A stretch of 64,000 nt of DNA from Mesorhizobium sp. M1D.F.Ca.ET.043.01.1.1 (GTDB lineage: Bacteria > Pseudomonadota > Alphaproteobacteria > Rhizobiales > Rhizobiaceae). Shown piece after piece: positions 25,135 to 45,711 of this stretch. Every line of letters starts with the position of its first letter. The first letter of the stretch is position 1. A model generated the notes under the pieces. The model had not been told where the DNA came from and did not search any database. It saw nothing but the letters and a program-made list of their open reading frames with translations. Location of the stretch: the NCBI RefSeq assembly GCF_003952385.1, contig NZ_CP034444.1, positions 2,666,001 to 2,730,000 on the forward strand, read 5' to 3'. The position numbers and the translations under genes were made by a program.

Positions 25135-26715
25135 TTATGAAGCCGGGCTATCGCGCAGCGTCGCAACGGTCTTCAGCGCGCCGTCCAGCATGTCGCCTTT
25201 CTCGTCCTTCAGCGCCGCCTCGCGCAGGCGGCGGATCCAGTCGGCGGCGTCGTCGCGGCCCTCGAGCATGGCAAGCGCCGACAGCACGCGGTCGAATTTC
25301 GACTGGGCGCGGGCGTGGGTGTCGCTGTAGCCCTTGATCAGCCGGCGGCAGTTCAGGATCTCCAGCCCAAGCGCATAGTTTTCGCGCGCATGGGCGAGCG
25401 CCAATTCATACCAGCGCTCCAGATGTTCCATCTCGACCTTGTGGCGCAGCAGGCGGCGACGCCAGCGGCGCAGGCCGCCGATGAACCAGAGCATGGCGAA
25501 GCCGGTGAAACTGTCGGTGCGGATGTGGCGGCCGCGATTGATGCGGCGGTCGAGGAAGGCGGCGAGCTTCGGCCGGTCTTCGATGTAGCTGCCCAGCCCC
25601 GCCGGCAGCGTGCCGCAGAATTCCTCGATGCGCGGATGGAAGTACTCGGTGACCTGCAGGACCGTTCCGTCCTTGACGCCGACCTCCTTGCGCACGCGCC
25701 TGTCGCGGGTTGAACGGGTCTTCAGATCGGCGACGCGGATCATGTCGTCGTAGCACATGGCGTTGGCCAGATGTTTCGCCGCGGCGATCGACAGCGCATA
25801 GGCGTGCTCCGGGCCATCTAGCGCGACGGCCTTGTCCAGCCGGTCGAGATACTCGCCGCCATAGGCGATGTCCTGGTAGTCGACGACCTTCTTCAGGCCG
25901 CGTTCGGCCATGTCGCGCATCGGCTCCGGCAGCGCCCGGACGCGGGCGGCAAGATCCTGCCAGCCCTTCAGCAGCGTTTCGGGGCCGCTGACCTTCGGGC
26001 TGGCTTCGGGAGCGGCTGGTTTGGCCGCTGCCTTGTCGCCCGCCGGCGCGGCTGCGATGCCGCGCGCGCGGTCATAGGCGGCGCCGAAGGCGGCAAGGCT
26101 GGCCTTGACGCCACGGCCGCCGGCGCCGATCGCCTGCTCGTAGCTTGCGCGGGCAAACGGCAGCGCGTCGGAACCGGCCAGCGCGCCGAGCAGGCTGGCC
26201 GAGATCATCGTGCCGTTCTCGGCGGCGATCTTTTCCATGTCGAAGGCAATGAAGCGTTTCGCGGCAGCCTCCGCTGTCGCCTGCACCTTCTGCGAGGAGG
26301 CGCGGCCATCGCCCGGCTCGATCTTTTCCGAGACGGCGGCGATGCGATGCGAGGAGGCGATCAGCGTCGTGCGCTCGGGCGTGACGAAGCCGCGGATGAT
26401 GGCGCGGCCGGCTTCCATCAGCTCGGCGGCGATCAGGATGTCGACGTCCCCTTGCGACGGCGACAGCGCGAAGACCGGCAGCCGGCCGGTGTCGCGGGCC
26501 ATCTCGATGTAATAGATCGTCGCGCCGGTGCGCTGGGCAACGCCCGCAACGGACGTCGACTGCGCAATGTAGCCGCTGCGTTCGGCGACGTCGGTGATCC
26601 AGTCGGCGAGCACGCCGCCGCCCTGGCCGCCGACGGCAAGCACGGCGAGTTTTATCACCTGCTCGTCACCGACGGCGTCCGTCCTCGGGCGCAAGGGCGA
26701 GGCCTGGTCAAGCAT
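25135..26715 (-). CDS. iorB: IorB-type beta subunit of 2-oxoacid:ferredoxin oxidoreductase with C-terminal extension
   Basis: A 526-residue beta subunit annotated as indolepyruvate oxidoreductase beta family. Residues about 20-215 are the catalytic gamma/beta domain (VGGQGGGVLADWI, then SVAGVAQRTGATIYYIEM, which helps close the thiamine site). After an Ala/Pro linker (about 220-245) a 280-residue alpha-helical extension follows, a DUF6537-like domain absent from classic archaeal IorB. Together with IorA it should oxidatively decarboxylate an aryl-2-oxoacid to an aryl-CoA plus reduced ferredoxin. The start overlaps the iorA stop by 8 bases. In this cluster the likely substrate is isatinate rather than indolepyruvate (inference). 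Confidence 0.88.
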   Translation of the reverse strand: MLDQASPLRPRTDAVGDEQVIKLAVLAVGGQGGGVLADWITDVAERSGYIAQSTSVAGVAQRTGATIYYIEMARDTGRLPVFALSPSQGDVDILIAAELMEAGRAIIRGFVTPERTTLIASSHRIAAVSEKIEPGDGRASSQKVQATAEAAAKRFIAFDMEKIAAENGTMISASLLGALAGSDALPFARASYEQAIGAGGRGVKASLAAFGAAYDRARGIAAAPAGDKAAAKPAAPEASPKVSGPETLLKGWQDLAARVRALPEPMRDMAERGLKKVVDYQDIAYGGEYLDRLDKAVALDGPEHAYALSIAAAKHLANAMCYDDMIRVADLKTRSTRDRRVRKEVGVKDGTVLQVTEYFHPRIEEFCGTLPAGLGSYIEDRPKLAAFLDRRINRGRHIRTDSFTGFAMLWFIGGLRRWRRRLLRHKVEMEHLERWYELALAHARENYALGLEILNCRRLIKGYSDTHARAQSKFDRVLSALAMLEGRDDAADWIRRLREAALKDEKGDMLDGALKTVATLRDSPAS

Positions 26716-28861
26716 CGGCGAACACCAGCCGGCGGCTCTCGCGGCGGCGCTGCAGAAGACCGATCGCGGCGCGGCGCGCGCTTTCCAGGAACCGGTCCCA
26801 GCGGCCGGGATTGTGGACGACGTCGGCGCGGTAGAAGGACGGGCAGAGCACGGCCGCGTCCGCCACCTCGCCGCAATTGCCGCAGCCGACGCAGTTCTGG
26901 TCGATCGATGCCACCGGATCGTCGCGCAGCGGATCGTCGAGCGACTTCACCGACAGCGACGGACAGCCGGAGAGCCGCATGCAGGCATGGTCGCCGGTAC
27001 AAATGTCCTCATCGACGCCGAACTTCGGCTTAACCACACGCTCGCCGCCCTTGATCGCCTTGTCGACCAGCGGCTTCTCGCGGCGCTGGCGGTTGAGCAT
27101 GCATTCGGAGGAGGCGACGATGACCTTCGGCCCCTTCTCCTCGGTGGTCAGCGCCTCGCGTAGCGCGGCTTGCATCTTGCCGACGTCATAGGTGCGGTCG
27201 ATGTGACGCAGCCATTTGACGCCCATGCCTTTCACCGCCTCGGTGATCGGATGCCTGGTCGACTTGGTGCGGTTCGAGGCGCGCGACGACAGGATGTCCT
27301 GGCCGCCGGTGGCGGCCGAGTAGAAATTGTCGACGATGACGATGACGCCGTCATTCTTGTTGAACACCGCATTGCCGATCGAGGAGGTCAGGCCGTTGTG
27401 CCAGAAGCCGCCGTCGCCGACGAAAGAGATCGAGCGGCGTTTGGCTTCCGGAGAGTTGAAGGCCGAGGCAGATGCTGGCCCAAGGCCATAGCCCATGGTG
27501 GTGGCGCCGAGTTCGAAGGGCGGCATGATCGAGAACAGGTGGCAACCGATGTCGGAGGCGATGTGGTGCTTGCCGAGTTCCTGCTCGACCAGTTTGGTGG
27601 CGGCGAAGATCGGCCGCTCGGGGCAGCCGACACAGAAGCCCGGCGGCCGGCCCGGAACGACATTGATGAGATCGGCCGTATCGACCCCCTCGCCCAGCTT
27701 GTTCGGCGCGCGCACCTCGCCCGGCAGCAGATGCGGAGCATGCGCCCTGAGGAAGGAGCCGATGCCGTCGAGCATCACCTGTCCGGTGTATTCGCCAGCC
27801 ATCGGCAGATGCTCCTTGCCGACCAGCTTCGTGCCGCGACCGGCCTTGTGCAGCACGGCGGCAAAGGCCTGCTCGATATAGTTGGGCTGGCCTTCCTCGA
27901 CGACCAGCACCGCCTGCTTGCCTTCGCAGAAGGACAGGAACTCGTCGTCGATCAGCGGGTAGACGGCGTTGAGCACATAGAGCGGCACATCGGTGTCGCC
28001 ATAGTTGTCGGCGATGCCGAGCCGCTGCAGCGCGCGGATGACGGAATTATACATGCCGCCCTGCATGACGATGCCGACTGGGCCGTGATCGGAGCCGAAG
28101 ATCTCGTTGATCTTGCGGCCGCGGATGTAGTCGACCGCCGCCGGCCAGCGCTTGGCGACCTTCTCCTTCTCATGCAGGAAGGAAGCCGGCGGCAGCACAA
28201 TGCGGCCGGTGTCGCGGCGAGGCGCCGACAGCGCATCGGCGACCGTCATCGGCGGGCGCTTGTTGTCCTTGGCGATGAAGTGGCCATGGACGTGGCAGCA
28301 GCGGATGCGCACCTGCAGCATGACCGGCGTGTTCGATGCCTCCGACAGCTCGAAGCCGTCCTCGACCGCCTTGACGATCGAGGGCAGGTTCGGGCGCGGG
28401 TCGAGCAGCCAGACCTGGCTCTTCATGGCGAAGGCGTGGCTGCGCTCCTGCATGATGGAGGAGCCCTCGCCGTAATCCTCGCCGACGATGATCAGCGCGC
28501 CGCCGGTGACGCCGCCGGAGGCCAGATTGGCGAGCGCATCGGAAGCGACATTGGTGCCGACCGTCGACTTGAAGGTGGCCGCGCCCCGGATCGGGTAATG
28601 CACGGAAGCCGCGAGCATGGCGGTGGCGGTGGCCTCCGAGGCACTCGCTTCGAAATGCACGCCGAGCTCGCCCAGGATGTCCTGCGCGTCGGCGAGCACG
28701 TCCATCAGATGGCTGATCGGCGCGCCCTGATAGCCGCCGACATAGCCGACGCCGCACTGCAGCAGCGCCTTGGTGATGGCGAGGATGCCTTCGCCGGCAA
28801 ATTCCTGGCCGGCCCCTAACCTCAGCTTTTCGACTTCCTTGGCAAAAGACCGTTCGGCCAT
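26708..28861 (-). CDS. iorA: IorA-type alpha subunit of 2-oxoacid:ferredoxin oxidoreductase
   Basis: A 717-residue alpha subunit. The N-terminal pyrimidine-binding region contains GVGYVGGYQGAPISHLMD; a thiamine-pyrophosphate domain follows with SFVGDGGFWHNG and DNFYSAATGGQD; the C-terminus carries a 2x[4Fe-4S] ferredoxin domain with cysteines in CTGDHACMRLSGCP and CVGCGNCG...CPSF. CVGCPERPIF marks an additional Cys pair. I start at the ATG at 28861, 6 bases after AAGGAGG, not at the upstream ATG. It accepts an aryl-2-oxoacid and CoA. It overlaps iorB and lies 59 bases after the marR-type gene, in a five-gene operon with the isatin-hydrolase-like gene. Confidence 0.92.
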   Translation of the reverse strand: MAERSFAKEVEKLRLGAGQEFAGEGILAITKALLQCGVGYVGGYQGAPISHLMDVLADAQDILGELGVHFEASASEATATAMLAASVHYPIRGAATFKSTVGTNVASDALANLASGGVTGGALIIVGEDYGEGSSIMQERSHAFAMKSQVWLLDPRPNLPSIVKAVEDGFELSEASNTPVMLQVRIRCCHVHGHFIAKDNKRPPMTVADALSAPRRDTGRIVLPPASFLHEKEKVAKRWPAAVDYIRGRKINEIFGSDHGPVGIVMQGGMYNSVIRALQRLGIADNYGDTDVPLYVLNAVYPLIDDEFLSFCEGKQAVLVVEEGQPNYIEQAFAAVLHKAGRGTKLVGKEHLPMAGEYTGQVMLDGIGSFLRAHAPHLLPGEVRAPNKLGEGVDTADLINVVPGRPPGFCVGCPERPIFAATKLVEQELGKHHIASDIGCHLFSIMPPFELGATTMGYGLGPASASAFNSPEAKRRSISFVGDGGFWHNGLTSSIGNAVFNKNDGVIVIVDNFYSAATGGQDILSSRASNRTKSTRHPITEAVKGMGVKWLRHIDRTYDVGKMQAALREALTTEEKGPKVIVASSECMLNRQRREKPLVDKAIKGGERVVKPKFGVDEDICTGDHACMRLSGCPSLSVKSLDDPLRDDPVASIDQNCVGCGNCGEVADAAVLCPSFYRADVVHNPGRWDRFLESARRAAIGLLQRRRESRRLVFADA

Positions 28862-28920
28862 CTCTGCCTCCTTCCGTTGCCGCCTGTCCGTTGCCGGAGG
28901 GGGCGGCGCGTATGTCAGAC

Positions 28921-29403
28921 TCAAATGTCGTGCTTGCGGATGTTCTTCAGCATCTTCTGCAGGATGGCGATCAGCGCGGCATATTCGGCATCGTCGACAC
29001 CGTCGAACATCGCCTCGAAGGCATCGTGCATGGCGGGCCAGGCGCGGGTGAAGAGCGCCCGCCCGTCATCGGTCAGGAACACGTGGCGGATGCGGCTGTC
29101 GGTGACGCCCTGCTCGCGCCGCACCAGGCCCTGGCCTTCCAGCGTGTCGAGCGTGCGGCTCAAGGTCGACTGCTCGATCACCGTGTAGACCGATAGGTCG
29201 TTGACGGTGACGCCGTCGGTGATCGACAGCACGGCCAGTGTGCGCACCTGCGGGATGGTCAGGCCCTGCTTGCGGAAGTCGTCGCGCAAGGTGGCGTTGT
29301 AGCGGCCCATGATGCGGTTCATCAGATAGGGCGCGAACTGCTGCAGGCCGATCTCGCCGAGGGTCGAGATGCGCTGGCGCTTTTCCGGAAGCTTGCTGTC
29401 CAT
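28921..29403 (-). CDS. MarR-family regulator (catabolic operon 1)
   Basis: A 160-residue winged-helix regulator with NRIMGRYNATLRDDFRKQGL, VNDLSVYTVIEQSTLSRTLD (recognition region) and GLVRREQGVTDSRIRHVFLT (wing). MarR proteins in aromatic clusters commonly bind the substrate or its CoA ester and then release DNA. The ATG overlaps the stop of the upstream FAD oxidoreductase (TGATG), and GAGG is the ribosome site. A second MarR gene at 42619 serves the opposite operon. A possible shared operator is found at 31870 and 39464. Confidence 0.9.
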   Translation of the reverse strand: MDSKLPEKRQRISTLGEIGLQQFAPYLMNRIMGRYNATLRDDFRKQGLTIPQVRTLAVLSITDGVTVNDLSVYTVIEQSTLSRTLDTLEGQGLVRREQGVTDSRIRHVFLTDDGRALFTRAWPAMHDAFEAMFDGVDDAEYAALIAILQKMLKNIRKHDI

Positions 29404-30974
29404 CAGAGCCTCCCCGCCAGGAGGAAGCCGGAGCCGCCGCCAAGGCCGGCGCCCGGATGCGTCGAAGCGCCGATGTGGTAGAGGCCCTGGATGCCGGTCT
29501 CGTGGTTGCGGCTTGCCTTGAACGGCCGCCACAGGAAGGCCTGGTCGATGGTCGACGAGCCGCCATAGGGATCGCCGCCGACAAGGTTGACGTTCATCGC
29601 TTCGAGATCGGCCGGCGAATAGGCGCGGCGCGCGATGACCGTCTTGCGGAAACCGTCGATGTGATGGGCGAGGATCGCCTCGACCCGGTCGGCAAAGGCT
29701 TCGCGCAAAGCGTCGCTCCATCGTCCGTCAGCCGGTGTTTCCAACTGGCCCGCCGCATCGCCTTTGACAACGCGCGGCGCCTCGGGCAGTTGCAGCCAGA
29801 GGATCGCCTTGCCCTCCGGACAGCGCGACGGGTCGAGCGCGTGCGGCTGGCCGACGCAGATGGTCGGCACTTGCGGCAGCAGGCCGCGCACCGCCTCGTT
29901 GCAGGCTTTCGAGACGCCGTCGAGCCCCGGCGTCAGATGCAGCAGCGCCACCTTGCCGAGGCCCTCGCCGCGCCAGGCCGGCGACTTGTTCAGCGCATAG
30001 TGGATCTGGAAGTTGCCCTTTCCGTAGCGATAGTCTTTCGTCGCTTTCGCGGCGGCCTCCGGCGCATCCTTGCCGAGCAGGCGGCCGTAAAGCTGCGTCG
30101 GCGTGACCGAGCAGACGACGCTCTTGGCGGCGCTTAGCGTCTCGCCGGAGGCGAGCTGCACGCCGGTGGCTCGGCCGCCGATCTGGACGATCGAGGTGAC
30201 ATCGGCATTGACGCGGATTTCGCCGCGGCGCTCCTTGATCAGCGCCTCGAAGGCAGCGAGCAGGTTCTTGGCGCCGCCCTTGACGATCGGCGCGCCGGCC
30301 GCCTCCAGCGCAAAGGCGATGACTTTGGCGATCTGACCGGAGAAGGCGTCTTCCGGTCCGAGCCCGGCATGCAGCACCCAGGGCGCCCAGAGCGCGCGCA
30401 CGGTATCGGATGTATAGCCGGCTTCCAGCCAGCCGCGCGCGGGAACCAGCGTCTCGCCCATGAAGGCGGCAAGGTTGCGCGGGCCGCGGCGCCAGGCTTC
30501 GCCGGCCATGAGCCTCGTCGTCGGATAGGACCAGAGCGCGCCGCCGAGCAGTCCGAACAGCAGCCCGGCATTGCGCTCGACGTCGCCGACATCGCCGCCA
30601 TGGCGGTCGCCGTCGCCGGAGGCAATCGCGTTCAGCGCCGCTATGTTGGCGGCGCGGTCGGTGGTGAGCACCGCATGGCTGCCGTCGGGCCGCAGCACGC
30701 CGGTGGGGGTGGCGGTGTGGCAGAATTCCAGCCCGTGCCGCGCAAGGTCCTTGCCGAGCGCGGCATAGGCCGGCGAGGTGATGAACAGCACGAAGGTCGT
30801 CGCCATCACATCATGGACGAAGCCGGGCGCAGTGATCTCCTCGCTGCGCATGCAGCCGCCGATGCGGTCGTTTCGCTCGAGCACGAGCACCCTGGCGCCC
30901 TTCGCGCCAAGCATCGCCGCGCAGACCAGGGCGTTGATGCCGCTGCCGACGATGATGTGATCGACATCGCTCAT
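29403..30974 (-). CDS. FAD-dependent oxidoreductase (CrtI/phytoene-desaturase-like), copy 1
   Basis: A 523-residue flavoprotein. HIIVGSGINALVCAAML is the Rossmann FAD motif and VLERNDRIGGCMRSEE follows, the CrtI-type signature. The C-terminal FAD motif is GLYHIGASTHPGAGLGGGSG. It is soluble and paralogous to the protein encoded at 31900 on the opposite strand. The family desaturates or oxidises hydrophobic substrates; here it may oxidise an indole or oxindole derivative, as required upstream of isatin (inference). It lies 16 bases after the cyclase-family gene. Confidence 0.88.
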   Translation of the reverse strand: MSDVDHIIVGSGINALVCAAMLGAKGARVLVLERNDRIGGCMRSEEITAPGFVHDVMATTFVLFITSPAYAALGKDLARHGLEFCHTATPTGVLRPDGSHAVLTTDRAANIAALNAIASGDGDRHGGDVGDVERNAGLLFGLLGGALWSYPTTRLMAGEAWRRGPRNLAAFMGETLVPARGWLEAGYTSDTVRALWAPWVLHAGLGPEDAFSGQIAKVIAFALEAAGAPIVKGGAKNLLAAFEALIKERRGEIRVNADVTSIVQIGGRATGVQLASGETLSAAKSVVCSVTPTQLYGRLLGKDAPEAAAKATKDYRYGKGNFQIHYALNKSPAWRGEGLGKVALLHLTPGLDGVSKACNEAVRGLLPQVPTICVGQPHALDPSRCPEGKAILWLQLPEAPRVVKGDAAGQLETPADGRWSDALREAFADRVEAILAHHIDGFRKTVIARRAYSPADLEAMNVNLVGGDPYGGSSTIDQAFLWRPFKASRNHETGIQGLYHIGASTHPGAGLGGGSGFLLAGRL

Positions 30975-30990
30975 CGCCGTGGCCCGAACC

Positions 30991-31782
30991 TTAACCCCGC
31001 GGCACCAGCGCCAGCGCGCGGATCGGGCTGCCGGTGCCGTGCTCGATCTTGAGCGGCGCGGCGATCAGGATCGCGCCCTTCGGCGGCAGCTGGTCGAGAT
31101 TGCAGAGGCTGGCGAGGCCGTAACGATTGGCCTTGTGCATCAGCGTGTGCGCCGGGAATGGCGGCTCCATGCCGCCGGCCTTGCCGGCATCGGTGCCGAT
31201 CGTCTCGGAGCCCCAGCCCTTGATGTCCTTGCTGATCAGGAACTGGATAACTTCGGCCGTCGGTCCGGGCGTGTGCGGGCCGGTCTCGTTGGCGTTGAGG
31301 AATTCGGCCTCCGAGCCGTTGCGCTTGTACCAGTCGGTGCGCATCACAACCCATTCGCCGGGATTGATGGCGCCATGCTCGGCTTCCCAGGCCTTGATGT
31401 GGTCGACGGTGAGCAGGAAATCGTGGTCGGCTGCGGCTTCCTTCGAGCAGTCGATGACATTGACCGGGCCGACGAAATTCTGCGCCGGAATGGTGTCGGT
31501 GGCGCCGTCCGGATAGTCCTTGCCGGTGATCCAGTGCTGCGGCGCGTCGAAATGCGTGCCCGAATGCTCGCCGAGCTTCAGCCAGTTCCAGGCCCACCAC
31601 GGGCCGTTCTTGTCATATTTGGAGATGGCGTGGATCTCGACCTTCGGCGTGTCGACGGCGAGCTCCGGCGGCAGCTTGATCAGCGGCGTGTCGGGCCCGA
31701 GCGGCGCCGACAGATCGACCACCTTGATGGCGCCCGAAAGCAGCTGGGCGGCGACTTCGCCGAGGAGTTTTTGCGTGTCCAT
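30991..31782 (-). CDS. Cyclase-family amidohydrolase resembling isatin hydrolase
   Basis: A 263-residue member of the cyclase (kynurenine formamidase-like) superfamily with metal-binding HSGTHFDAPQH at residues 73-83. The sequence closely resembles, from memory, the structurally characterised isatin hydrolase of Labrenzia, in particular the WAWNW segment before the motif, MRTDWYKR, FPAHTLMH and the end GTGSPIRALALVP; a proper alignment is needed. Isatin hydrolase opens the lactam of isatin to isatinate. It is the first gene of the operon and therefore divergent from the second FAD oxidoreductase. The alternative is another cyclic-amide hydrolase or a KynB-like formamidase. Confidence 0.82.
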   Translation of the reverse strand: MDTQKLLGEVAAQLLSGAIKVVDLSAPLGPDTPLIKLPPELAVDTPKVEIHAISKYDKNGPWWAWNWLKLGEHSGTHFDAPQHWITGKDYPDGATDTIPAQNFVGPVNVIDCSKEAAADHDFLLTVDHIKAWEAEHGAINPGEWVVMRTDWYKRNGSEAEFLNANETGPHTPGPTAEVIQFLISKDIKGWGSETIGTDAGKAGGMEPPFPAHTLMHKANRYGLASLCNLDQLPPKGAILIAAPLKIEHGTGSPIRALALVPRG

Positions 31783-31869
31783 GGTTCTGTTCCCTCTTGT
31801 TCGTGACCTTCAAGGCTCGTTGCGGCCCTTAATATCCTACTAGACGAAAACATATGCATCTGCAATTAT

Positions 31870-31883
31870 CTTTAAGCATAAAG
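31870..31883. promoter_or_regulatory. Candidate MarR operator, site 1
   Basis: CTTTAAGCATAAAG is an imperfect palindrome in the divergent promoter region between the isatin-hydrolase-like operon and the second FAD oxidoreductase operon. It matches 11 of 14 bases with 39464-39477, and both are preceded by CAATTAT. It sits just upstream of the ribosome site at 31889. Proposed from comparison of only two sites. Confidence 0.5.
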
Positions 31884-31899
31884 CATTTTGGGGAGGGGG

Positions 31900-33474
31900 G
31901 TGAGCGAGTTCGACGCCATCTTTGTCGGGGCGGGCCACAACAGTCTGGCCTGCGCGGCGCATCTGTCGCTCAAAGGCTGGAAAACCGCGGTTTTCGAGCG
32001 CAGCCAGGCGATCGGCGGCGCCGTCCGGACGGCGGAATATACGTTGCCCGGCTTCCGTCACGATTTCGGCGCGATGAATCTGAGCCTGTTCGCCGGCTCG
32101 GCCTTCCACCGGAAATATGCAAATGAATTGAAAGACCAGGGGCTGGAATTCGCGCCCGTCACCGACTGTTTCGCCAGCGCCTTCCCGGACGGGAAGTGGT
32201 TCGGCGTCAGCAACGATCTCGAAAAGACCGTCGCGCGGCTCGCTGCCTTCTCCGCCGCCGATGCCGCCGCCTGGCGCCGGCTGGTCGGCGCCTTTCCCGG
32301 AGAGGCCGAGCATCTTTTCCGCCTGCTCGGATCGCCGATGAGCGCGCGGGCGCTGGCCGGCACGGCCTGGAATCTCTGGCGCAGGAAGGGCCTGGCCGGC
32401 GCGCTCGACACCGGCCGGCTGCTTCTCTCCTCGCCGCGGGCGTGGCTGGAGGACAATTTCGAGACGCCGCATGTCAGGACAACGCTCGCGGCCTGGGGCA
32501 TGCATCTCGACTTCGCGCCCGACATCGCCGGCGGCGCCGTGTTTCCTTATCTGGAATCGATGGCCAACCAGAGCTTCGGCATGGTGCTTGGCAAGGGCGG
32601 CGCCGACACCATCATCCGCGCGCTGGCCGGCATGGTCAAAACGGCGGGCGGCAAGATCTTCACCGACGCGGAGGTGGCGGAGATCACGGTCGCCGGCGGC
32701 CGGGCGACCGGCGTGCGGCTGGCGTCCGGCGATTTCCATGTCGCCAGCAAGGCCGTCATTGCCGGCGTCGCGCCAGGAGCGCTTGCGGGCAAGCTGCTGC
32801 CCAATGGCTCCGGCGACGCCGGATTCGACGCGGCGGTGAAAAAGTTCCGCCATGCGCCGGGCACGATGATGATCCATCTGGCGCTGGACGATCTGCCGGA
32901 CTGGAACGCCGGCGCCGAGCTTCGCCGGTTCGCCTATGTGCATCTGGCGCCGTCCCTCGACGCCATGTCGCGCACCTATCAGCAGGCGATGGCCGGCATC
33001 TTGCCGGATCAGCCGGTGCTCGTGGTGGGACAGCCGACGGCTGTCGACCCCTCGCGTGCGCCCGACGGCAAGCATGTGCTGTGGGTGCAGGTGCGCATGT
33101 TACCGGCAGAAATCCTTGGCGATGCCGCCGGTAAGACCACGCCTGCTCATTGGGACGCGGTCAAGGACGCCTATGGCGAACGCGTGCTCGACATCATCGA
33201 GACCTACGCGCCCGGCCTGCGCAAGAAGATCCTCGGCCGCGCGATCTTCTCGCCGCTCGACCTCGAGCGCGAGAACCCGAATCTCGTCGGCGGCGACCAG
33301 ATCTGCGGCAGCCACCATCTGGCGCAGAATTTTCTCTTCCGTCCGGCGCGCGGCTTCGCGCGCTGGAACACGCCGGTCTCAAACCTCTACCTCACCGGCG
33401 CCGCGACATGGCCCGGCGCCGGCACCGGTGCCGGGTCCGGCTTCATGCTCGCGCAACAACTGGGAGGAATTTGA
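31900..33474 (+). CDS. FAD-dependent oxidoreductase (CrtI/phytoene-desaturase-like), copy 2
   Basis: A 524-residue flavoprotein with the FAD motif VGAGHNSLACAAHLS, then VFERSQAIGGAVRTAEY, and the C-terminal TGAATWPGAGTGAGSG. It is a paralogue of the protein at 29403 with the same domain order. The GTG at 31900 follows a purine-rich GGGGAGGGG site; an upstream TTG in frame is unlikely. It heads the plus-strand transporter operon. Having one copy in each divergent operon suggests two related oxidation steps or a heteromer (inference). Confidence 0.87.
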   Translation: MSEFDAIFVGAGHNSLACAAHLSLKGWKTAVFERSQAIGGAVRTAEYTLPGFRHDFGAMNLSLFAGSAFHRKYANELKDQGLEFAPVTDCFASAFPDGKWFGVSNDLEKTVARLAAFSAADAAAWRRLVGAFPGEAEHLFRLLGSPMSARALAGTAWNLWRRKGLAGALDTGRLLLSSPRAWLEDNFETPHVRTTLAAWGMHLDFAPDIAGGAVFPYLESMANQSFGMVLGKGGADTIIRALAGMVKTAGGKIFTDAEVAEITVAGGRATGVRLASGDFHVASKAVIAGVAPGALAGKLLPNGSGDAGFDAAVKKFRHAPGTMMIHLALDDLPDWNAGAELRRFAYVHLAPSLDAMSRTYQQAMAGILPDQPVLVVGQPTAVDPSRAPDGKHVLWVQVRMLPAEILGDAAGKTTPAHWDAVKDAYGERVLDIIETYAPGLRKKILGRAIFSPLDLERENPNLVGGDQICGSHHLAQNFLFRPARGFARWNTPVSNLYLTGAATWPGAGTGAGSGFMLAQQLGGI

Positions 33475-33585
33475 GCCTAGGAACTCCAGGATGGACAAGG
33501 CGCGGTTGCTCACCAGACCTGCCGAATGAAAAACGCCGCGCGCACAATGACAGTCAAAAATGGACAACCAACAAGGGGAACGACC

Positions 33586-37917: not shown

Positions 37918-38740
37918 GCCGTTGTTTTCCGTGCGCGGGCTGAAAGTGGCGCTGCCCGACATGACGCGCAAACCGCTGATCGGCCGGGCGCCGCTTGCGG
38001 AAATCCTCAAGGGTCTCGATTTCGACCTGCCGAAGGGTTCGGTCACCGGCATCGTCGGCGAATCCGGCTCGGGCAAGTCGACGCTCGGCCGCGCGCTGGT
38101 CAGGCTGATCGAGCCGAGCGCAGGCTCGATCCGCTTCGAGGGGCGCGACATCAGCCATCTTTCGGAAGCCGACCTCAGACCGCTGCGCCGCGACCTGCAG
38201 ATGATCTTCCAGGACCCGATGTCGTCGCTCAATCCTCGGCATACGATCTTCAATATCATTGCAGCACCCTTGAGGCAGAACGGGCTTGGCGACAGGCTGA
38301 AGGAACGGGTCGCGGACGCCTTGCAGCGCGTCGGCCTGCCGCAGAATTTTGCCGGCCGATATCGGCACGAGCTGTCCGGCGGCCAGCGCCAGCGCGTCGG
38401 CATCGCGCGGGCGCTGGCGCTGTCGCCGAAATTCGTGCTGGCCGACGAGATTGTCTCCGGCCTCGACGTCTCGACGCAGGCGCAGATCCTCACCCTGCTG
38501 GAAAAGCTGGCCGCCGAGATGGGGCTGACGATCGCCTTCATCAGCCACGACCTGTCGGTGATCCGGCGGCTCTGCCAGCAGGTCATCGTCATGCGCGAGG
38601 GCAGGATCGTCGAATCGAGCGCCACCGACGCGCTGTTCGACAAACCCAGGGAGGCCTACACGCGCGACCTGCTCGCCGCCATTCCGCTGCCCGAGATCGA
38701 CGCGGACTGGCTGCGGCCGCCCGCGAAGGCGCCGGCATGA
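37910..38740 (+). CDS. DppF-like ABC ATPase
   Basis: A 276-residue ATPase with Walker [11 protein letters not shown]-loop FQDPMSSLNPRH, signature LSGGQRQR and Walker B VLADEIVSGLD. The residues after the catalytic Glu read IVSG instead of the usual PTSA/PVSA, a mild divergence in the D-loop region. Completes the importer begun at 33586. Confidence 0.94.
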   Translation: MTEPLFSVRGLKVALPDMTRKPLIGRAPLAEILKGLDFDLPKGSVTGIVGESGSGKSTLGRALVRLIEPSAGSIRFEGRDISHLSEADLRPLRRDLQMIFQDPMSSLNPRHTIFNIIAAPLRQNGLGDRLKERVADALQRVGLPQNFAGRYRHELSGGQRQRVGIARALALSPKFVLADEIVSGLDVSTQAQILTLLEKLAAEMGLTIAFISHDLSVIRRLCQQVIVMREGRIVESSATDALFDKPREAYTRDLLAAIPLPEIDADWLRPPAKAPA

Positions 38741-38822
38741 GAAAAGCTTGACCTGTCCGCACGCCGAACAGCGGGCCTCGGATGTGCAGGGAAGCAAAGT
38801 CAGCCCGCCAATGGAGGGTGAC

Positions 38823-39422
38823 ATGAACTACGCAGCAGGCGGCGCGATGCTCGCCGCAATCCTGTTCGGCTCGATGGGAGCGGCCTCGGCCGATTCGATC
38901 CCCGGCATGCGTGGGCACGACCATACCGGCATCACCGTGCCCGACATGAAGCAGGCCGTCGACTTCTTCACCGGCATGGTCGGATGCAAGAAGGCGATGT
39001 CGTTCGGCCCGTTCGCCGACGACAAGGGCACCTTCATGCAAGACCTGCTCGGCGTCGATCCGAAGGCGGTGATCGAGGAGATCACCATGCTCCGCTGCGG
39101 CACCGGTTCGAACATCGAGCTGTTCAAATACACCGCGCCCGACCAGAAGGACCTGCAGCCGAAGAACAGCGACATCGGCGGCCTCCACATCGCCTTCTAT
39201 GTCGACGACGTCGCCGCGGCGAAGACCTATCTCGACGCCAAGGGCGTGAAGACCAGGCTGGGACCATTGCCGGTCAAGGAAGGGCCGGCCGCCGGCCAGA
39301 CCATCCTTTACTTCCAGGCGCCGTGGGGACTGCAGCTCGAAGCGATCAGCTATCCGCAAGGCATGGCCTACGAGAAGGGCGCCGAAACGGTGCTATGGAG
39401 CCCCAAGGACCCGGCCAAGTGA
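38823..39422 (+). CDS. VOC-family (glyoxalase-like) protein with signal peptide
   Basis: A 199-residue protein with a Sec signal (residues 1-23, ending GAASA) and a vicinal-oxygen-chelate fold: HDHTGITVPDMKQAVDFF at the start and IGGLHIAFYVDDVAAAKTYL in the second half, with LQLEAISYPQG at the end. Possible metal ligands are the His of HDHTG, Glu in NIELFKY, His in GLHIAF and the Glu of LQLEAI. GGAGGGTG precedes the ATG. Most VOC enzymes are cytosolic, so export is unusual. It lies 82 bases after the transporter ATPase. It may modify or bind the imported aromatic compound (inference). Confidence 0.82.
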   Translation: MNYAAGGAMLAAILFGSMGAASADSIPGMRGHDHTGITVPDMKQAVDFFTGMVGCKKAMSFGPFADDKGTFMQDLLGVDPKAVIEEITMLRCGTGSNIELFKYTAPDQKDLQPKNSDIGGLHIAFYVDDVAAAKTYLDAKGVKTRLGPLPVKEGPAAGQTILYFQAPWGLQLEAISYPQGMAYEKGAETVLWSPKDPAK

Positions 39423-39463: not shown

Positions 39464-39477
39464 CTTTAAGCTTGAAA
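39464..39477. promoter_or_regulatory. Candidate MarR operator, site 2
   Basis: CTTTAAGCTTGAAA is an imperfect palindrome centred on AAGCTT in the A/T-rich promoter region of the aryl-CoA operon, 84 bases upstream of the ATG at 39561. It matches site 31870-31883 at 11 of 14 bases, and CAATTAT lies upstream of both. Confidence 0.5.
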
Positions 39478-39560
39478 TAATTTCCGGAAGGCGCGATACT
39501 GACAGTCGGGATCGCTTGGCCTTGCCGGCGACTCCCGATGCGAAGAGGAGATCGCAAGAC

Positions 39561-41855
39561 ATGAAGGTTGCGGTTCTCGGCGGCGGACCGGCCGGGCTCT
39601 ACTTTGCCATCTCGCTGAAGCTGCGCGACGCCGCGCATGAGGTGACAGTCTATGAACGCAACCGCCCGGACGACACGTTCGGCTGGGGCGTGGTGCTGTC
39701 GGCCGAAACGCTGGACAACCTGACCAGGAACGATCCGGTCAGCGCGGTCTGGATCAAGAAGCATTTCGCCTATTGGGACGATATCGCCGTCATCCATGAC
39801 GGCGTGCGCACGGTATCCTCCGGCCATGGCTTCTGCGGCATCGGCCGCAAGCGGCTCCTGATCCTTTTGCAGCGCAGGGCGCGCGAGCTCGGCATCAAGT
39901 TGATGTTCGAGACCGAGATCTCGGACCCCAGGCCGTTCATGGAAACGCATGACCTGGTGGTCGCGGCCGACGGGCTGAACTCCAAGTCACGCGCGGCTTT
40001 TGCCGATGTCTTCAGGCCGGATATCGACACCCGCAAATGCAAGTTCGTCTGGCTCGGCACGACGCAGAAATTCGACGACGCCTTCACCTTCATCTTCGAG
40101 AAGACGGAGCATGGCTGGGTGTGGGCGCATGCCTACCAGTTCGACAGCGAGACCGCGACCTTCATCGTCGAATGCAGCGAAGAGACCTGGGTTGCCTTCG
40201 GCTTCGGCCAGATGACGCAGCAGGAATCGATCGCGGTCTGCGAGCGCATCTTCAAAAAGCATCTCGGCGGCCATCCGCTGATGACCAACGCCAACCACAT
40301 CCGCGGGTCGGCCTGGATCAATTTCCCGCGCGTGCTGTGCGAGCGCTGGTCGTATAAGAACCTGGCGCTGATGGGCGATGCGGCGGCGTCGGCGCATTTC
40401 TCCATTGGCTCCGGCACCAAGCTCGCGCTGGAAAGCGCTGTCGCGCTCGCCGACTATGTCGAGTCCGAGCCGGACCTCGAGGCGGCCTTCCGCAAATATG
40501 AAGACGCGCGCCGCACCGAAGTGCTGAAGCTGCAGTCGGCGGCGCGCAATTCGCTCGAATGGTTCGAGGAAGTCGAACGATATCTCGGACTCGATCCGGT
40601 GCAGTTCAACTATTCGCTGCTCACCCGCTCGCAGCGCATCAGCCACGAGAACCTGAGACTGCGCGACGCCGAATGGCTGGCGGGCGCCGAGGAATGGTTC
40701 CAGCGCAGGGCCGGCGCGGACGGCAGAAGCTTGCGCCGCGCGCCGATGTTCGCGCCGTTCAAGCTGCGCGACATGGCGCTCAACAACCGCATCGTCGTCT
40801 CGCCGATGGCGCAGTACAAGGCCGTCGACGGCTGTCCGACCGACTGGCATTTTGCTCACTATGCCGAGCGCGCCAAGGGCGGCGCCGGCCTCGTCTATAT
40901 CGAGATGACCTGCGTCAGCCCCGAGGGACGCATCACGCCCGGATGCCCCGGCTTCTACAAGCCGGAACATGAGGTCGCGTGGAAGCGCCTGGTCGATTTT
41001 GTCCATGCCGAGACCGAGGCGAAAATCTGCGCCCAGATCGGCCACTCCGGCGCCAAGGGCTCGACCCGCCTCGGCTGGGAAGGAACCGACGAGCCGCTAC
41101 CCTCCGGCAACTGGCCGGTGATGGCGCCTTCGGCAATCCCGTGGTCGCCCGGGAACCAGGTGCCGAAGGCGATGGACCGCGCCGACATGGACGCTGTGCG
41201 CGACCAGTTCGTCGCCTCGGCGCAGATGGCCGAGCGCTGCGGCTTCGACATGCTGGAGATCCATGCCGCGCATGGCTACCTGCTCTCGGCGTTCATCACG
41301 CCGCTGACCAACAGGCGCACCGACGACTATGGCGGCTCGCTCGAAAACCGCATGCGCTATCCGCTGGAGATCTTCCACGCGGTGCGCGCGGTGTGGCCGG
41401 CGGGAAAGCCGATCTCGATGCGCATCTCGGCCAATGACTGGGTTGGCATCGAGGGCGTGACGCCGGCCGATGCCGTTGAGATCGCCAGGCTTCTGCATCA
41501 AGCCGGCGTCGACCTCTGCGACGTGTCGGCCGGCCAGACCACGATCGCCGCAAGACCTGTCTATGGCCGCATGTTCCAGACGCCGTTCTCCGACCGCATC
41601 CGCAACGAGGTCGGCATGGCGACCATGGCTGTCGGCAACATCTACGAGCCCGACCATGCCAACTCGATCCTGATGGCCGGACGCGCCGATCTGGTGGCGC
41701 TGGCGCGACCGCATCTCACCGACCCCTACTGGACGCTGCATGCGGCGGTCACGCTCGGCGACCGCGGCATCAAATGGCCGGATCCTTATCTGCGCGGGCG
41801 CGACCAGATCTATCGCCTGGCCGAACGCGAAGCAGCAGCGGGGCTGAAGGTATGA
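39561..41855 (+). CDS. Fused aryl-CoA flavin monooxygenase / Old Yellow Enzyme (anthraniloyl-CoA or salicylyl-CoA type)
   Basis: A 764-residue two-domain flavoenzyme. Residues 1-385 are a PHBH-type FAD monooxygenase ([36 protein letters not shown]). Residues about 392-755 are an Old Yellow Enzyme-like FMN reductase ([49 protein letters not shown]). This fusion is known from 2-aminobenzoyl-CoA monooxygenase/reductase of Azoarcus, which hydroxylates and then reduces the ring, and from salicylyl-CoA 5-hydroxylase. GAGGAG lies upstream of the ATG at 39561. The companion acyl-CoA genes and a RidA favour the anthraniloyl-CoA role. It heads the six-gene operon. Confidence 0.92.
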
Positions 41856-42625
41856 GCGCCGCTCCGGCAATCATGGGCAGGCACGCCCTGGTCACCGGCG
41901 GCGGCTCTGGCGTTGGGCGCTCGATCGCGCTGGCGCTGGCGGGTGCCGGCGTCACCGTCACCATCTGCGGCCGGCGCGAGGCGGCGCTTGCCGAGGTCGC
42001 AAAGGAAAACGACCGCATCTTTGGCATTGCCGCCGATGTCACCGACGAAGCGGAAATGGCCGCTCTGCACGAGAAGGCGGAAGCGGCGCGCGGACCGTTC
42101 GACATCGTGGTTGCCAATGCCGGCATGGCCGGCAGCGCCCCGGCGCACAGGATTTCGCTGGCCGACTGGCGACGCACGCTCGACGTCAACCTCACCGGCG
42201 CCTTCCTGACGGTGAAGCCGGCGCTGGCCGGCATGCTGGCGCGAAAGTCGGGCCGCATCGTCTTCGTCGCCTCGACCGCCGGCTTGAAAGGCTATGCTTA
42301 TGTCGCGCCTTACGTCGCTGCCAAGCACGGCGTCGTCGGGCTGATGCGAGCGCTCGCAGCCGAGACGGCAAAATCAGGCATTACCGTCAATGCGGTGTGC
42401 CCAGGCTTCGTGGAAACCGACATGCTGGAAGAGTCGGTCCGGCGCATCGTCGAAAAAACCGGCCGCGCCGCCGACGAGGCGCGGGCGAGCCTTGCCGCGA
42501 TCAATCCGCAAGGGCGTTTCGTCCAGCCGGACGAGGTCGCTGCGGCGGTGCTTTGGCTATGCAGCGACGCCGCGCGATCGATCACCGGACAGGCCATCTC
42601 GGTCTCCGGAGGCGAGACATGGTAG
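41852..42625 (+). CDS. Short-chain dehydrogenase/reductase
   Basis: A 257-residue SDR with the cofactor motif TGGGSGVGR (TGxxxGxG), NAGMAGS, a catalytic Ser in VASTAG, YVAAK (YxxxK) and the usual [16 protein letters not shown] after the second strand suggests NADP. The ATG overlaps the upstream stop by four bases. In this operon it would act as a 3-hydroxyacyl-CoA-like dehydrogenase on the ring-cleaved product (inference). Confidence 0.9.
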
Positions 42626-43083
42626 CCGGACCGACGTCCACCGGGCCGGGTAAGGACAGGCTGCGCCTGTGGATACGCCTGCTGCGTGCTTCGCGCACCA
42701 TCGAGGCAGAGCTGCGCGAGCGGCTGAAGAAGGAATTCGACACGACGCTGCCGCGCTTCGACGTGATGGCGGCACTCTACCGGTCGCCGGAAGGCATGCT
42801 GATGAGCGATCTGTCGCGCTTCCTGCTGGTGTCGAACGGCAATGTGACGGGCATCGTCGACCGCCTGGTTTCGGAAGGCCTTGTGACGCGCGCGCGCCGC
42901 AACGGCGACCGCCGCACCTCGATGGTGCGGCTGACCGAGGAAGGCTCCAAATCTTTCGCCGCGATCGCCGCCGCGCATGAGAGCTGGGTCGGCGAGCTGC
43001 TCGGCACTGTCAGCGAGGACGAGGCGCGCCGTCTGACCGGCATGCTGAAATCGTTCCGCAGCAATTGGGAGGGACGCGAATGA
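42619..43083 (+). CDS. MarR-family regulator (catabolic operon 2)
   Basis: A 154-residue winged-helix protein with [20 protein letters not shown] (recognition helix) and [20 protein letters not shown] (wing). It is embedded between the SDR and crotonase genes, overlapping both (7 and 4 bases). MarR genes in this position of anthraniloyl-CoA/benzoyl-CoA type operons usually respond to the aryl-CoA. It is distinct from the MarR at 28921. Confidence 0.9.
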
Positions 43084-43892
43084 GCGCCATGGCCAAGCTC
43101 AAGCCAAAGCACTTCCTTTGGGAGGTCGAAGGCCGGGTCGCAAAGATCCGGCTCGACCGGCCGGAGCGCAAGAACCCGCTGACTTTCGACAGCTATGCGG
43201 AGATGCGCGACACGTTTCGCGGCCTCGTCTATGCCGAGGATGTCGATGCCGTGGTGTTCCTGCCCAATGGCGGCAATTTCTGCTCGGGCGGCGATGTCCA
43301 CGACATCATCGGGCCGCTGGTGAAGATGGACATGAAGGCGCTGCTCGCCTTCACGCGCATGACCGGCGACTTTGTCAAGGCGATGCTCAACTGCGGCAAG
43401 CCGATCATCTCGGCCGTCGACGGCGTGGCGGTCGGCGCCGGCGCCATTATCGCCATGGCCTCCGACATCCGCATCGCCACGCCGGAGGCGAAGACCGCCT
43501 TCCTGTTCACCCGCGTCGGGCTTGCCGGCTGCGACATGGGCGCCTGCGCGATCCTGCCGCGCATCATCGGCCAGGGCCGCGCGGCCGAGCTGCTCTATAC
43601 CGGCCGCACGATGAGCGCCGCCGAAGGCGAGCGCTGGGGGTTCTACAACCGGCTGGTCGATGCGGCGGCGCTCGAGGCCGACGCGCTCGACATGGCGGCG
43701 CGCATCGTCTCCGGCCCGACTTTCGCGCACGGCATCACCAAGACGCAGCTCAACCAGGAATGGTCGATGGGCCTCGACCAGGCGATCGAGGCGGAAGCGC
43801 AGGCACAGGCGATCTGCATGCAGACCGGCGATTTCGAGCGCGCGTACAAGGCCTTCGTCGCCAAGGAAAAGCCCGTGTTCGAGGGGAATTGA
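43080..43892 (+). CDS. Crotonase-fold enoyl-CoA hydratase-family protein
   Basis: A 270-residue crotonase. The oxyanion-hole elements [13 protein letters not shown] and [14 protein letters not shown] are typical, and [11 protein letters not shown] retains the second glutamate position. The first catalytic glutamate of ordinary hydratases (PExxLG) is replaced: the segment reads [16 protein letters not shown]. It may therefore catalyse a different step, such as hydration or hydrolytic C-C cleavage of an alicyclic CoA ester, rather than simple enoyl hydration. The start at 43080 overlaps the marR stop. Confidence 0.85.
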
Positions 43893-43929
43893 GGATGGGC
43901 GGATTGTTGGAGACGTTGGCGGGACAGCA

Positions 43930-44083: not shown

Positions 44084-44123
44084 CGCCGTAGAGCGCAAGG
44101 CTCGAAGTACAGCGGAGGCGCAA

Positions 44124-45272
44124 ATGCCTGACCGTTCCTTCCTCTCGTGGCCCTTCTTCGAAGACCGCCATCGCCAACTCGCCGAACGCCTCGACGCCTG
44201 GTGTGCGAAGAACCTCCGGGTCGATCACCACGACGTGGACGCCGCCTGCCGCGCGCTGGTGGCGAGGCTTGGCCGCGACGGCTGGCTGAAGCCGACGGCG
44301 CTCGACCCGCACAATCCCGCACCGCTCGACGTGCGCACGCTCTGCATCACCCGCGAGACACTCGCGCGCCATGATGGCCTGGCCGACTTCGCCTTCGCCA
44401 TGCAAGGCCTTGGCACCGGCGCGATCTCGCTCTTCGGCACGCCGGACCAGCAGCGCTGGCTGGAGAAGACGCGAGCCGGTCAAGCGATTTCCGCGTTTGC
44501 GCTGTCCGAGCCGCGCTCAGGTTCGGACGTCGCCAACATGGAAATGACGGCGGTACGCGACGGCGACGACTACGTGCTGTCGGGCGAAAAGACGTGGATC
44601 TCCAATGGCGCCATCGCCGATCTCTATGTGGTCTTCGCCCGCACCGGTGAGGCGTCGGGCGCCAAGGGGATTTCCGCTTTCATCGTGCCTGCCGACACGA
44701 AGGGTCTGGGCATTGCCGAGCGCCTCGAGGTCATCGCTCCGCACCCGTTGGCGCGGCTTTCGTTCGACAATGTCCGCGTTCCGGCTTCCGCCCTGATCGG
44801 CAAACCCGGCGACGGCTTCCGCATCGCCATGTCGGTGCTCGACGTCTTCCGCTCGACCGTCGGCGCCGCTGCTCTCGGCTTCGCCCGCCGTGCGCTGGAC
44901 GAAAGCATCAAGAGGGTGGCCGAACGGAAACTCTTCGGCGCGCCGATGGCCGAACTGCAGATGGTGCAAGGCCATATCGCCGACATGGCGCTGGACGTCG
45001 ACGCCGCCGCCTTGCTCATCTACCGCGCCGCGTGGACCAAGGACATGGGCGCCGCCCGCGTCACCCGTGAGGCTGCGATGGCGAAACTGTTCGCCACCGA
45101 TCGGGCGCAGGAAGTGATCGACAAGGCGGTGCAACTGCATGGCGGCGACGGCGTGCGCAAGGGCCATATCGTCGAGAGCCTCTATCGCGAGATCCGGGCG
45201 CTGCGCATCTATGAGGGCGCTTCCGACGTGCAGAAGGTGGTGATCGCCAGGCAAGTCATGGGAGCCGCTTGA
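44124..45272 (+). CDS. Acyl-CoA dehydrogenase
   Basis: A 382-residue acyl-CoA dehydrogenase with [18 protein letters not shown] (FAD/substrate loop), [11 protein letters not shown], and [20 protein letters not shown], then [11 protein letters not shown] containing the catalytic-base glutamate. GGAGG lies 4 bases upstream of the ATG at 44124. The preceding 231-base gap contains the inverted-repeat element. It probably oxidises an alicyclic or dicarboxylic acyl-CoA in the aryl-CoA pathway; electron transfer flavoprotein genes are not in this window. Confidence 0.92.
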
Positions 45273-45315
45273 CACCATGCCCTGCGAACCGAATTTGAAT
45301 TAGGGGAAGCTAGAC

Positions 45316-45711
45316 ATGCACACCATCCTGCAGCCGGAAGGCTGGGCCAAACCGATCGGCTACGCCAATGGCGTCGCGGCGCGCGGGCGGCTGGTTTTCG
45401 TCGGCGGCCAGGTCGGCTGGAACGCCGCGTGCAAATTCGAGACCGATGACTTCGTCGGCCAGGTGCGCCAGACGCTCGCCAATATTGTCGCGGTGCTGGC
45501 GGAAGCCGGCGGCGAGCCGCACCACATCACCTCAATGACCTGGTATTTCACCGACAAAGCCGAGTATCTCGCCAACCTCAAAGGGATCGGCGAGGCCTAC
45601 CGCGCCGTTATCGGACGGCATTTTCCGGCAATGGCCGCCATGCAGGTGGTGGCGCTGGTCGAGGACCGGGCCAAGGTGGAAATCCAGGCTACGGCGGTTA
45701 TTCCGGACTAG
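45316..45711 (+). CDS. RidA-family protein (last gene of aryl-CoA operon)
   Basis: A 131-residue RidA-fold protein with VFVGGQVGW, FVGQVRQTLANIVAVLAEAG and the C-terminal VEDRAKVEIQATAVIPD. The last segment differs from canonical RidA. AGGGGAAG precedes the ATG. A RidA-like gene is also reported in the anthranilate clusters of Azoarcus, where an imine/enamine must be hydrolysed to release ammonium; the same role is likely here. The stop codon TAG coincides with the outer end of RIME copy 2. Confidence 0.88.
   Translation: MHTILQPEGWAKPIGYANGVAARGRLVFVGGQVGWNAACKFETDDFVGQVRQTLANIVAVLAEAGGEPHHITSMTWYFTDKAEYLANLKGIGEAYRAVIGRHFPAMAAMQVVALVEDRAKVEIQATAVIPD

Follow-up and report, generated by a model that had tools for sequence, protein, structure and literature searches.

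A Mesorhizobium gene island that may lead oxidised indoles to anthraniloyl-CoA through an IorAB-type oxidoreductase

The catabolic island described here combines genes for a cyclase-family isatin hydrolase (IH), the two-subunit oxidoreductase IorAB and an abm operon. Its closest described relatives are the iad auxin loci, the abm pathway of 2-aminobenzoate breakdown, characterised isatin hydrolases and the iif/ind indole clusters. The biochemistry of 2-aminobenzoyl-CoA monooxygenase/reductase has been reviewed (PMC4539516), and the role of isatin is treated as an open question in the available text of a 2018 indole review (PMC6221969). IadA and IadB have been equated with Ior subunits (PMC9613470), and the available parts of the iad papers give them no step (PMC9613470, PMC12633357), so far as these parts go leaving the isatinate-removing enzyme seemingly unassigned. 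The name iad is also used for an iac-like cluster (PMC8383072), the available account of which has no bearing on IorAB.

The island occupies positions 25135 to 45711 of a 64,000-nucleotide stretch, here called the window, from the Mesorhizobium-type chromosome of Mesorhizobium sp. M1D.F.Ca.ET.043.01.1.1 (NZ_CP034444.1, positions 2,666,001 to 2,730,000); genome searches covered its single contig of 7,127,907 bases (7.13 Mb). From sequence comparison we judge it probable that the island is a catabolic route from oxidised indole through anthraniloyl-CoA to central metabolism, entered via IorAB. We favour, with slightly less assurance, the wider proposal that in isatin and iad loci IorAB acts as a CoA-acylating isatinate:acceptor oxidoreductase, and that a sister form would make ortho-substituted benzoyl-CoA for gentisate-type branches. 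No paper proposing isatinate as an IorAB substrate was found in a literature search whose coverage left out most subscription papers.

A predicted route from isatin to anthraniloyl-CoA

The island consists of a left operon on the minus strand and a right operon on the plus strand, diverging from a 105-bp intergenic gap (31783-31887). The cyclase is an isatin hydrolase by strong sequence homology: it scores 433 bits against Labrenzia isatin hydrolase B (4j0n) over residues 2-262, nearly full length, 316 and 299 bits against the solved isatin hydrolases 5nnb and 5nmp, and carries the metal-site motif H-x3-H-x-D-x3-H as HSGTHFDAPQH starting at residue 73 (the corresponding LaIHA residues are named in PMC6117287). 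AbmG, the fused monooxygenase, belongs by profile score to the abm/salicylyl-CoA hydroxylase family, exceeding the cut-off of NF006101 (bifunctional salicylyl-CoA 5-hydroxylase/oxidoreductase; 1269.4 against 1078 bits). A first-pass annotation of this DNA had described the former as resembling isatin hydrolase and the latter as a fused aryl-CoA monooxygenase/old yellow enzyme, and its gene list and positions proved correct, apart from one unlisted gene for a VOC-family protein (38820-39422).

IorAB has the broad features of a 2-oxoacid:acceptor oxidoreductase, namely a thiamine diphosphate (ThDP) domain (PF02775), a POR-type beta subunit (PF01558) and conserved cysteines. The ThDP domain of IorA contains the motif GDGGFWHNG, and 13 cysteines are kept in 40 or 41 of 41 IorA proteins. 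IorB scores 713.9 bits against NF006179, over the cut-off of 348, and so bears the NCBIfam name indolepyruvate oxidoreductase family. IorA reaches 270.4 bits against the IOR_alpha equivalog TIGR03336 and misses its curated cut-off of 650.9; the name indolepyruvate oxidoreductase is therefore not established for the pair.

In the proposed route, the family-5 importer would take up a small indole-derived compound, and FAD1 and FAD2 would oxidise a dioxindole-type compound to isatin, which IH is predicted to open to isatinate (2-aminophenylglyoxylate). Gene company and chemistry suggest that IorAB, as a ThDP/iron-sulphur (Fe-S) 2-oxoacid oxidoreductase, would then convert isatinate and CoA to anthraniloyl-CoA by oxidative decarboxylation. 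By homology to the Azoarcus evansii pathway, AbmG would hydroxylate and reduce the ring of anthraniloyl-CoA, and the short-chain dehydrogenase/reductase (SDR), crotonase (ECH) and acyl-CoA dehydrogenase (ACAD) would provide a beta-oxidation-like finish toward central metabolism; RidA may remove an enamine. An AMP-forming anthranilate-CoA ligase was not found in the genome, which would leave IorAB as the sole known way into its abm operon. The features are as follows.

25135..26715, minus strand: IorB-type beta subunit, POR domain plus DUF6537 (PF01558, PF20169)
26708..28867, minus strand, start approximate: IorA-type alpha subunit, ThDP domain plus C-terminal Fe-S region
28921..29415, minus strand, start approximate: MarR1 regulator; closest solved structures 3cjn and 7kym
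29403..30974, minus strand: FAD1, CrtI/CrtO-like FAD oxidoreductase (PF01593)
30991..31782, minus strand: isatin hydrolase, cyclase family, with metal-site motif
31841..31869, plus strand: site A, putative MarR1 operator, TAGAC-N8-ATGC-N3-TGCAAWTAT
31870..31882, plus strand: site B, putative abm-type operator at the IH/FAD2 divergent promoter, CTTTAAGCATAAA, exact match
31888..33474, plus strand: FAD2, CrtI/CrtO-like FAD oxidoreductase (PF01593)
33550..35112, plus strand, start approximate: family-5 ABC solute-binding protein (PF00496); solved relatives include binders of dipeptides and agrocinopine
35182..36189, plus strand: ABC permease A (PF00528)
36155..37030, plus strand: ABC permease B (PF00528)
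37027..37917, plus strand: ABC ATPase 1, an open frame with homologues at the same position in other islands
37910..38740, plus strand: ABC ATPase 2 (PF00005)
38820..39422, plus strand, start approximate: VOC-family protein (PF00903), kept in 58/66 loci
39464..39476, plus strand: site B, putative abm-type operator upstream of AbmG, CTTTAAGCTTGAA, exact match; similar sites lie 5' of AbmG in other loci
39558..41855, plus strand, start approximate: AbmG, fused aryl-CoA monooxygenase/old yellow enzyme of the 2-aminobenzoyl-CoA monooxygenase/reductase type (PF00724)
41852..42625, plus strand: SDR dehydrogenase (PF00106)
42613..43083, plus strand, start approximate: MarR2 regulator (PF12802), with a homologue at the same position in many abm operons
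43080..43892, plus strand: crotonase, ECH (PF00378)
44124..45272, plus strand: acyl-CoA dehydrogenase, ACAD (PF00441)
45316..45711, plus strand: RidA family protein (PF01042)

Entry to the abm operon with and without a ligase

In a class sample of 385 Alphaproteobacteria, IH (E <= 1e-40) was found in 13 genomes, IorA (E <= 1e-60) in 58 and AbmG (E <= 1e-150) in 71 (sampled genomes are given below by G numbers). IorA was present in 13/13 IH genomes and in 45/372 others (Fisher 5.9e-12). A sample of 398 Pseudomonadota contained 25 IH genomes, and the two samples together gave 36 distinct ones, nine of which come from one genus and are thus not independent. IorA and AbmG each occur in 34 of the 36; IH and IorA lie within 25 kb of one another in 23/36 (14/27 without the nine same-genus genomes), and IH and AbmG in 17/36. 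Adjacency of IH to IorAB, or of IorAB to AbmG, recurs in Alphaproteobacteria, Betaproteobacteria and one actinomycete plasmid. The last, from Tsukamurella and hence from another phylum, carries one FAD1-like oxidoreductase (40%), IorB, IorA, an IH homologue (47%), AbmG (50%), RidA (35%) and an abm-type ligase; the annotated neighbour of its FAD1-like gene gave no match. Plasmids of Sulfitobacter indolifex and Paracoccus sp. have IH-MarR-IorA-IorB clusters without adjoining AbmG. These may belong to iad systems, since a non-abm AMP-ligase (196 bits) lies about 3 kb from the Paracoccus cluster, and IadF-like ligases occur on many Sulfitobacter plasmids (14 records).

The abm operon of the window is complete for AbmG, SDR, ECH, ACAD, MarR2 and RidA, and lacks the ligase. 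ACAD is succeeded by the ligase gene in many abm operons; in the window it is followed by a 43-bp gap and then RidA. None of the genome's 15 matches to TIGR02262 is inside the window, and the nearest, which starts 465 bp beyond its end and about 19 kb from RidA, does not match a purpose-built abm-ligase profile. A search of the 7.13-Mb contig for an abm-type 2-aminobenzoate-CoA ligase (E <= 1e-100) found none; a plasmid-borne ligase outside that contig is possible, since in Mesorhizobium amorphae the abm-type ligase is encoded on a plasmid of 949 kb. Viral contigs, scanned with the ligase, yielded no matches and were not informative.

To compare operons we tabulated 71 of the 74 AbmG places of the class sample (two were not fetched and one was too short) and defined an abm operon as AbmG with at least three of SDR, MarR2, ECH and ACAD within 9.5 kb (n=40). 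IorA lay within 25 kb in 0/32 operons with a ligase nearby, as against 4/8 without one (Fisher 0.00077, or 0.0038 if G160 and G029 are counted once). The four ligase-free operons with IorA nearby are those of the window, G202, G160 and G029. G160 and G029 were rejected as replicates of a bypass because both have an abm ligase elsewhere in the genome, which counts against the proposed route and leaves the window and G202 as the clean cases among the 40. As for the other four ligase-free operons, a ligase is present elsewhere in G277 and G355, and the genomes of G193 and G292 are incomplete. In G160 and G029, IorAB lies about 9 kb from the abm operon, and the G160 locus also contains tryptophan dioxygenase, kynureninase and hydantoinase genes.

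In a whole-genome search of 29 chosen genomes, the abm ligase query found none in G000, G202, G294, G193, G292, G286, G364, G289 and G075, of which G294, G193 and G292 fall short of 90% completeness, and G286, G364, G289 and G075 are not among the AbmG matches. Among 23 further IH genomes it found none in G429, G698, G722, G596 and G651. The ligase is missing in 7 of the 34 genomes with both IH and AbmG; IorA is present in each of the seven. Sets without the ligase are those of G202, G722, G651, G429 and the window genome. In G202, an iad locus is joined to the abm operon; Azospirillum thermophilum has the same join within the 38 kb seen, and its AMP-ligase there is IadF-like. The sharpest contrast is between two genomes that are both listed as 100% complete. 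In G722, IorA-IorB-IH adjoins AbmG-RidA-ACAD-ECH and the genome search found no abm ligase; in G680, ligase-MarR-IH lies beside AbmG and there is no IorA. This comparison supports the view that IorAB can stand in for the ligase.

Several observations weigh against this interpretation. An abm ligase is present in 28 of the 36 IH genomes; in G684 it lies inside the abm operon of the same island, and in G554 and G557 it is 6 kb from AbmG. Five same-genus genomes (G425, G443, G489, G532 and G632) have it unlinked, and in G443 it adjoins kynureninase, with a sequence resembling site B, one mismatch, about 215 bp upstream. A plasmid island of Alloyangia pacifica matches, with 49-76% identity, IH, FAD1, MarR1, IorA, IorB, FAD2 and the five importer genes, and has an abm-type ligase (985 bits) after the importer; its AbmG block has homologues of SDR, RidA and MarR2, together with a cupin and FAA hydrolase, and no ECH or ACAD match. 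Moreover, IH and IorA do not lie within 25 kb of one another in 11 of the 34 genomes having both: in ten they are on different contigs, and in G479 the distance is 27 kb. IH identity in these genomes is 49-56%, and several of them are many-contig drafts. Ligase and IorAB often coexist, and the window genome represents one end of a range of variation. Because the ligase falls within the regulon of relatives, the island appears to provide one of two alternative ways into a shared abm operon, with the window genome apparently having the IorAB entry only.

The central idea of the first-pass annotation, that IorAB turns isatinate into anthraniloyl-CoA, thus gains comparative support from the linkage of IH and IorA, the ligase-free sets, the G722/G680 pair and the shared site B described below. 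The combination it had suggested searching for, cyclase, iorAB and fused monooxygenase genes without a ligase, occurs, as regards the abm ligase, in the seven genomes counted above. Its claim that no ligase is needed is supported for this genome's searched contig and several others and does not hold as a general property of such islands. A ligase in the same regulon, which it had regarded as contrary evidence, is found in relatives (G684, A. pacifica, G443) and was not found in the window genome's contig.

IorAB among its relatives and rival readings

In a tree of 41 IorA proteins, in which those of G160 and G029 were given a separate label, a 21-row clade (support 100/100) holds the 10 IorA located near IH or AbmG, plus that of G294, which is on a different contig from its IH and AbmG. 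Other features of the tree weigh against the proposed role: the clade also contains ten unlinked IorA, some of its members adjoin TRAP transporters without IH, and the AbmG-linked IorA of G160 and G029, as well as those of the IH genomes G187 and G281, fall outside it. The labels were matched as well by 23/500 shuffles, so the tree is weak support. Genes beside IorAB that were first taken for a Rieske oxygenase were rejected as such, being TRAP transporter genes (DctM/DctP/DctQ).

Ferredoxin-type Fe-S clusters usually have four cysteines; the first C-terminal Fe-S region of IorA (residues 623-675 of the 719-residue translation) has a C-x5-C-x5-C pattern with three, present in 41/41 IorA. A predicted IorA model (mean pLDDT 70.7) was set aside as a guide to substrate: the 50/50 fold matches shown were ThDP enzymes at template-modelling scores of about 0.33-0.40, acetohydroxyacid synthase and benzoylformate decarboxylase among them, a general resemblance with no bearing on substrate. 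IorA-IorB-thioesterase clusters with cupin and FAA hydrolase genes occur in G651, Caballeronia SBC1 and Ruegeria pomeroyi, two of them with AbmG, in the order IorA-IorB-thioesterase-AbmG (G651 and Caballeronia SBC1); such clusters suggest a gentisate-type branch fed by IorAB.

The best of the rival readings, though we think it unlikely, is that isatinate is turned, by IorAB or by some other activity, into 2-aminobenzaldehyde or free anthranilate, and that a separate AMP-ligase supplied from elsewhere makes anthraniloyl-CoA. The frequency of the abm ligase among IH genomes, and the occurrence of IH, AbmG and ligase without IorA in G680, agree with it; the seven ligase-free genomes, all with IorA, do not, and known IOR-type enzymes form acyl-CoA. 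Variovorax supplies evidence on both sides. The iadC-K2 region restores anthranilic acid, and strong accumulation of C8H7NO3 (the formula of isatinic acid) and C7H7NO is confined to strains that overexpress this region (PMC12633357). Judged by its naming, iadC-K2 leaves out iadA and iadB, and the accumulation of C8H7NO3 would fit the loss of an isatinate-consuming step. However, C7H7NO fits 2-aminobenzaldehyde on our own reading, and anthranilic acid is still formed with iadC-K2 (PMC12633357), indicating that this host can reach anthranilate without IorAB.

Less probable again is that IorAB is an ordinary indolepyruvate or arylpyruvate oxidoreductase which happens to lie beside the isatin genes. 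The NCBIfam name of the beta subunit and the relatives with TRAP transporters and no IH would suit such an enzyme, but its recurrent adjacency to IH or AbmG across Alpha- and Betaproteobacteria and an actinomycete plasmid, the score of IorA far under the IOR_alpha cut-off (270 vs 651) and a left operon without an aminotransferase gene all argue against it.

Upstream substrates, operators and island layout

The first-pass annotation had assigned the island to breakdown of the auxin indole-3-acetic acid (IAA), a role that our searches do not support for the window genome and that we regard as improbable. MarR1 does have a solved relative, 7kym, that is the structure of B. japonicum IadR (PMC11630574), and IorAB are marker genes of iad loci (PMC9613470). 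Yet the genome has no match to PF00848, the Rieske-oxygenase family of known auxin loci, and none to an IadD-like query (E <= 1e-60), so that the oxygenase of known iad loci is missing; other families of IAA-attacking enzymes were not searched. Two other islands, moreover, adjoin a trio of the styrene/indole-monooxygenase type. In A. pacifica, genes for an SDR, a styrene/indole monooxygenase (by annotation) and a flavin reductase precede the island, and the G001 island adjoins homologues of all three (monooxygenase 64%, SDR 76%, reductase 51%); the Tsukamurella genes adjoin a homologue of the A. pacifica SDR (53%). The A. pacifica monooxygenase scores below the StyA equivalog cut-off (213.9 vs 550), and indole as its substrate is accordingly taken from the annotation. 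The trio points to indole-type substrates, and a route running from indole via dioxindole, isatin and isatinate to anthraniloyl-CoA, with FAD1/FAD2 oxidising dioxindole, fits the G001 and A. pacifica sets. A search for homologues of the monooxygenase (E <= 1e-15) found none in the window or among the remaining fetched loci, which include the islands of G154 and G301; for the window's island, the upstream compound has to come from uptake or from synthesis elsewhere.

The least probable reading takes an oxygen analogue as the true substrate: ring opening of a benzofuran-dione-like lactone by the cyclase would give 2-hydroxyphenylglyoxylate, from which IorAB would form salicylyl-CoA for the AbmG-type hydroxylase. 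The salicylyl-CoA 5-hydroxylase name of the AbmG family model and the IorAB-thioesterase-AbmG clusters with cupin and FAA hydrolase in G651 and Caballeronia favour it, but the window operon has a beta-oxidation set and RidA in place of cupin and FAA hydrolase, the cyclase closely resembles isatin hydrolases of proven activity, and two other islands adjoin a gene of the indole-monooxygenase type.

The two operons of the island share a candidate operator. Site B, CTTTAAGCWTRAA, has two exact matches in the window, one at the IH/FAD2 promoter and one upstream of AbmG, where 0.00 were expected (100 shuffles). With up to two mismatches it was found upstream of AbmG in 33/71 stretches (the window included, and locus G366 counted twice) compared with 17/574 control stretches of other open reading frames in the same loci (Fisher 2.4e-23). 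An exact site, YTTTAAGCWTRAA, lies 27 bp before the iad ligase gene of G202, and two-mismatch sites occur at both IH and AbmG on plasmid La 6 and at IH, AbmG and the ligase in A. pacifica. At the IH promoters of G001, G154 and G301, where the abm genes are elsewhere, site B is missing (best five mismatches). The site A pattern was derived from those three promoters and that of the window, to which it is common. When tested separately it had one mismatch at the S. indolifex IH promoter and matched poorly in Paracoccus (4 mismatches), La 6 (5) and A. pacifica (7); a search of nine further IH or iad loci for its core, allowing one mismatch, found none. Both sites came from comparison; a palindrome scan requiring six or more matching bases per arm found none at the IH/FAD2 promoter. 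We infer that MarR2 binds site B and MarR1 site A, and that both regulators probably act at the IH/FAD2 promoter, joining the two operons in one regulon.

Conservation was scored as more than 50% identity and coverage in 80 fetched loci, with titles mostly Mesorhizobium. In the 66 loci longer than 20 kb, IorB, IorA, MarR1, FAD1, IH, FAD2 and the five importer genes are kept in 66/66 and AbmG in 65/66; SDR was counted in 6/66, the remainder of the right operon in these 66 loci lying mostly outside the fetched flank. FAD1 and FAD2 are paralogues with 38% identity, both resembling CrtI/CrtO-type flavoproteins. The 231-bp gap between ECH and ACAD holds a 23-bp inverted repeat (43937-43959 and 44054-44076) with one mismatch between its arms; one arm, searched against the window, found that pair only, and the repeat may be a small palindromic element or attenuator within the abm operon. 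On the 3' side of the island (45939-47996) lie a GntR regulator and a class-V pyridoxal phosphate (PLP) enzyme with a weak kynureninase match, below cut-off. Homologues of the two (56% and 52%) occur near the Caballeronia SBC1 IorAB cluster, and a PLP enzyme homologue (57%) near the G154 island.

Comparison with known systems

If the proposed route is correct, bacterial breakdown of indole and auxin would be tied to a CoA route that spares ATP, and marker genes of the iad loci of plant-associated bacteria would gain a function. IH shares near-full-length sequence and the metal-site motif with the Labrenzia and Ralstonia isatin hydrolases (4j0n, 5nnb, 5nmp; PMC6117287), for which the available text gives isatinate no assigned fate. 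The likeness to the iif/ind indole clusters (PMC6221969) lies in the StyA-like monooxygenase, flavin reductase and SDR of the A. pacifica and G001 islands; the window lacks the monooxygenase, and the iif route, as described there, reaches anthranilate by IifA and not through isatin and CoA (PMC6221969). With the iad auxin loci of Variovorax and Bradyrhizobium (PMC9613470, PMC12633357) the island has in common the IorA/IorB homologues IadA/IadB, a MarR regulator and the isatin-to-isatinate stage, and in G335 and G202 IH and IorAB stand beside Rieske oxygenase genes. It differs in FAD1/FAD2, the family-5 importer and the abm genes, and its genome lacks an IadD-like Rieske match. The right operon resembles the aerobic 2-aminobenzoate pathway of Azoarcus evansii (PMC4539516) in having a fused monooxygenase/reductase followed by beta-oxidation-type genes, whereas entry to the pathway in the window would be through IorAB.

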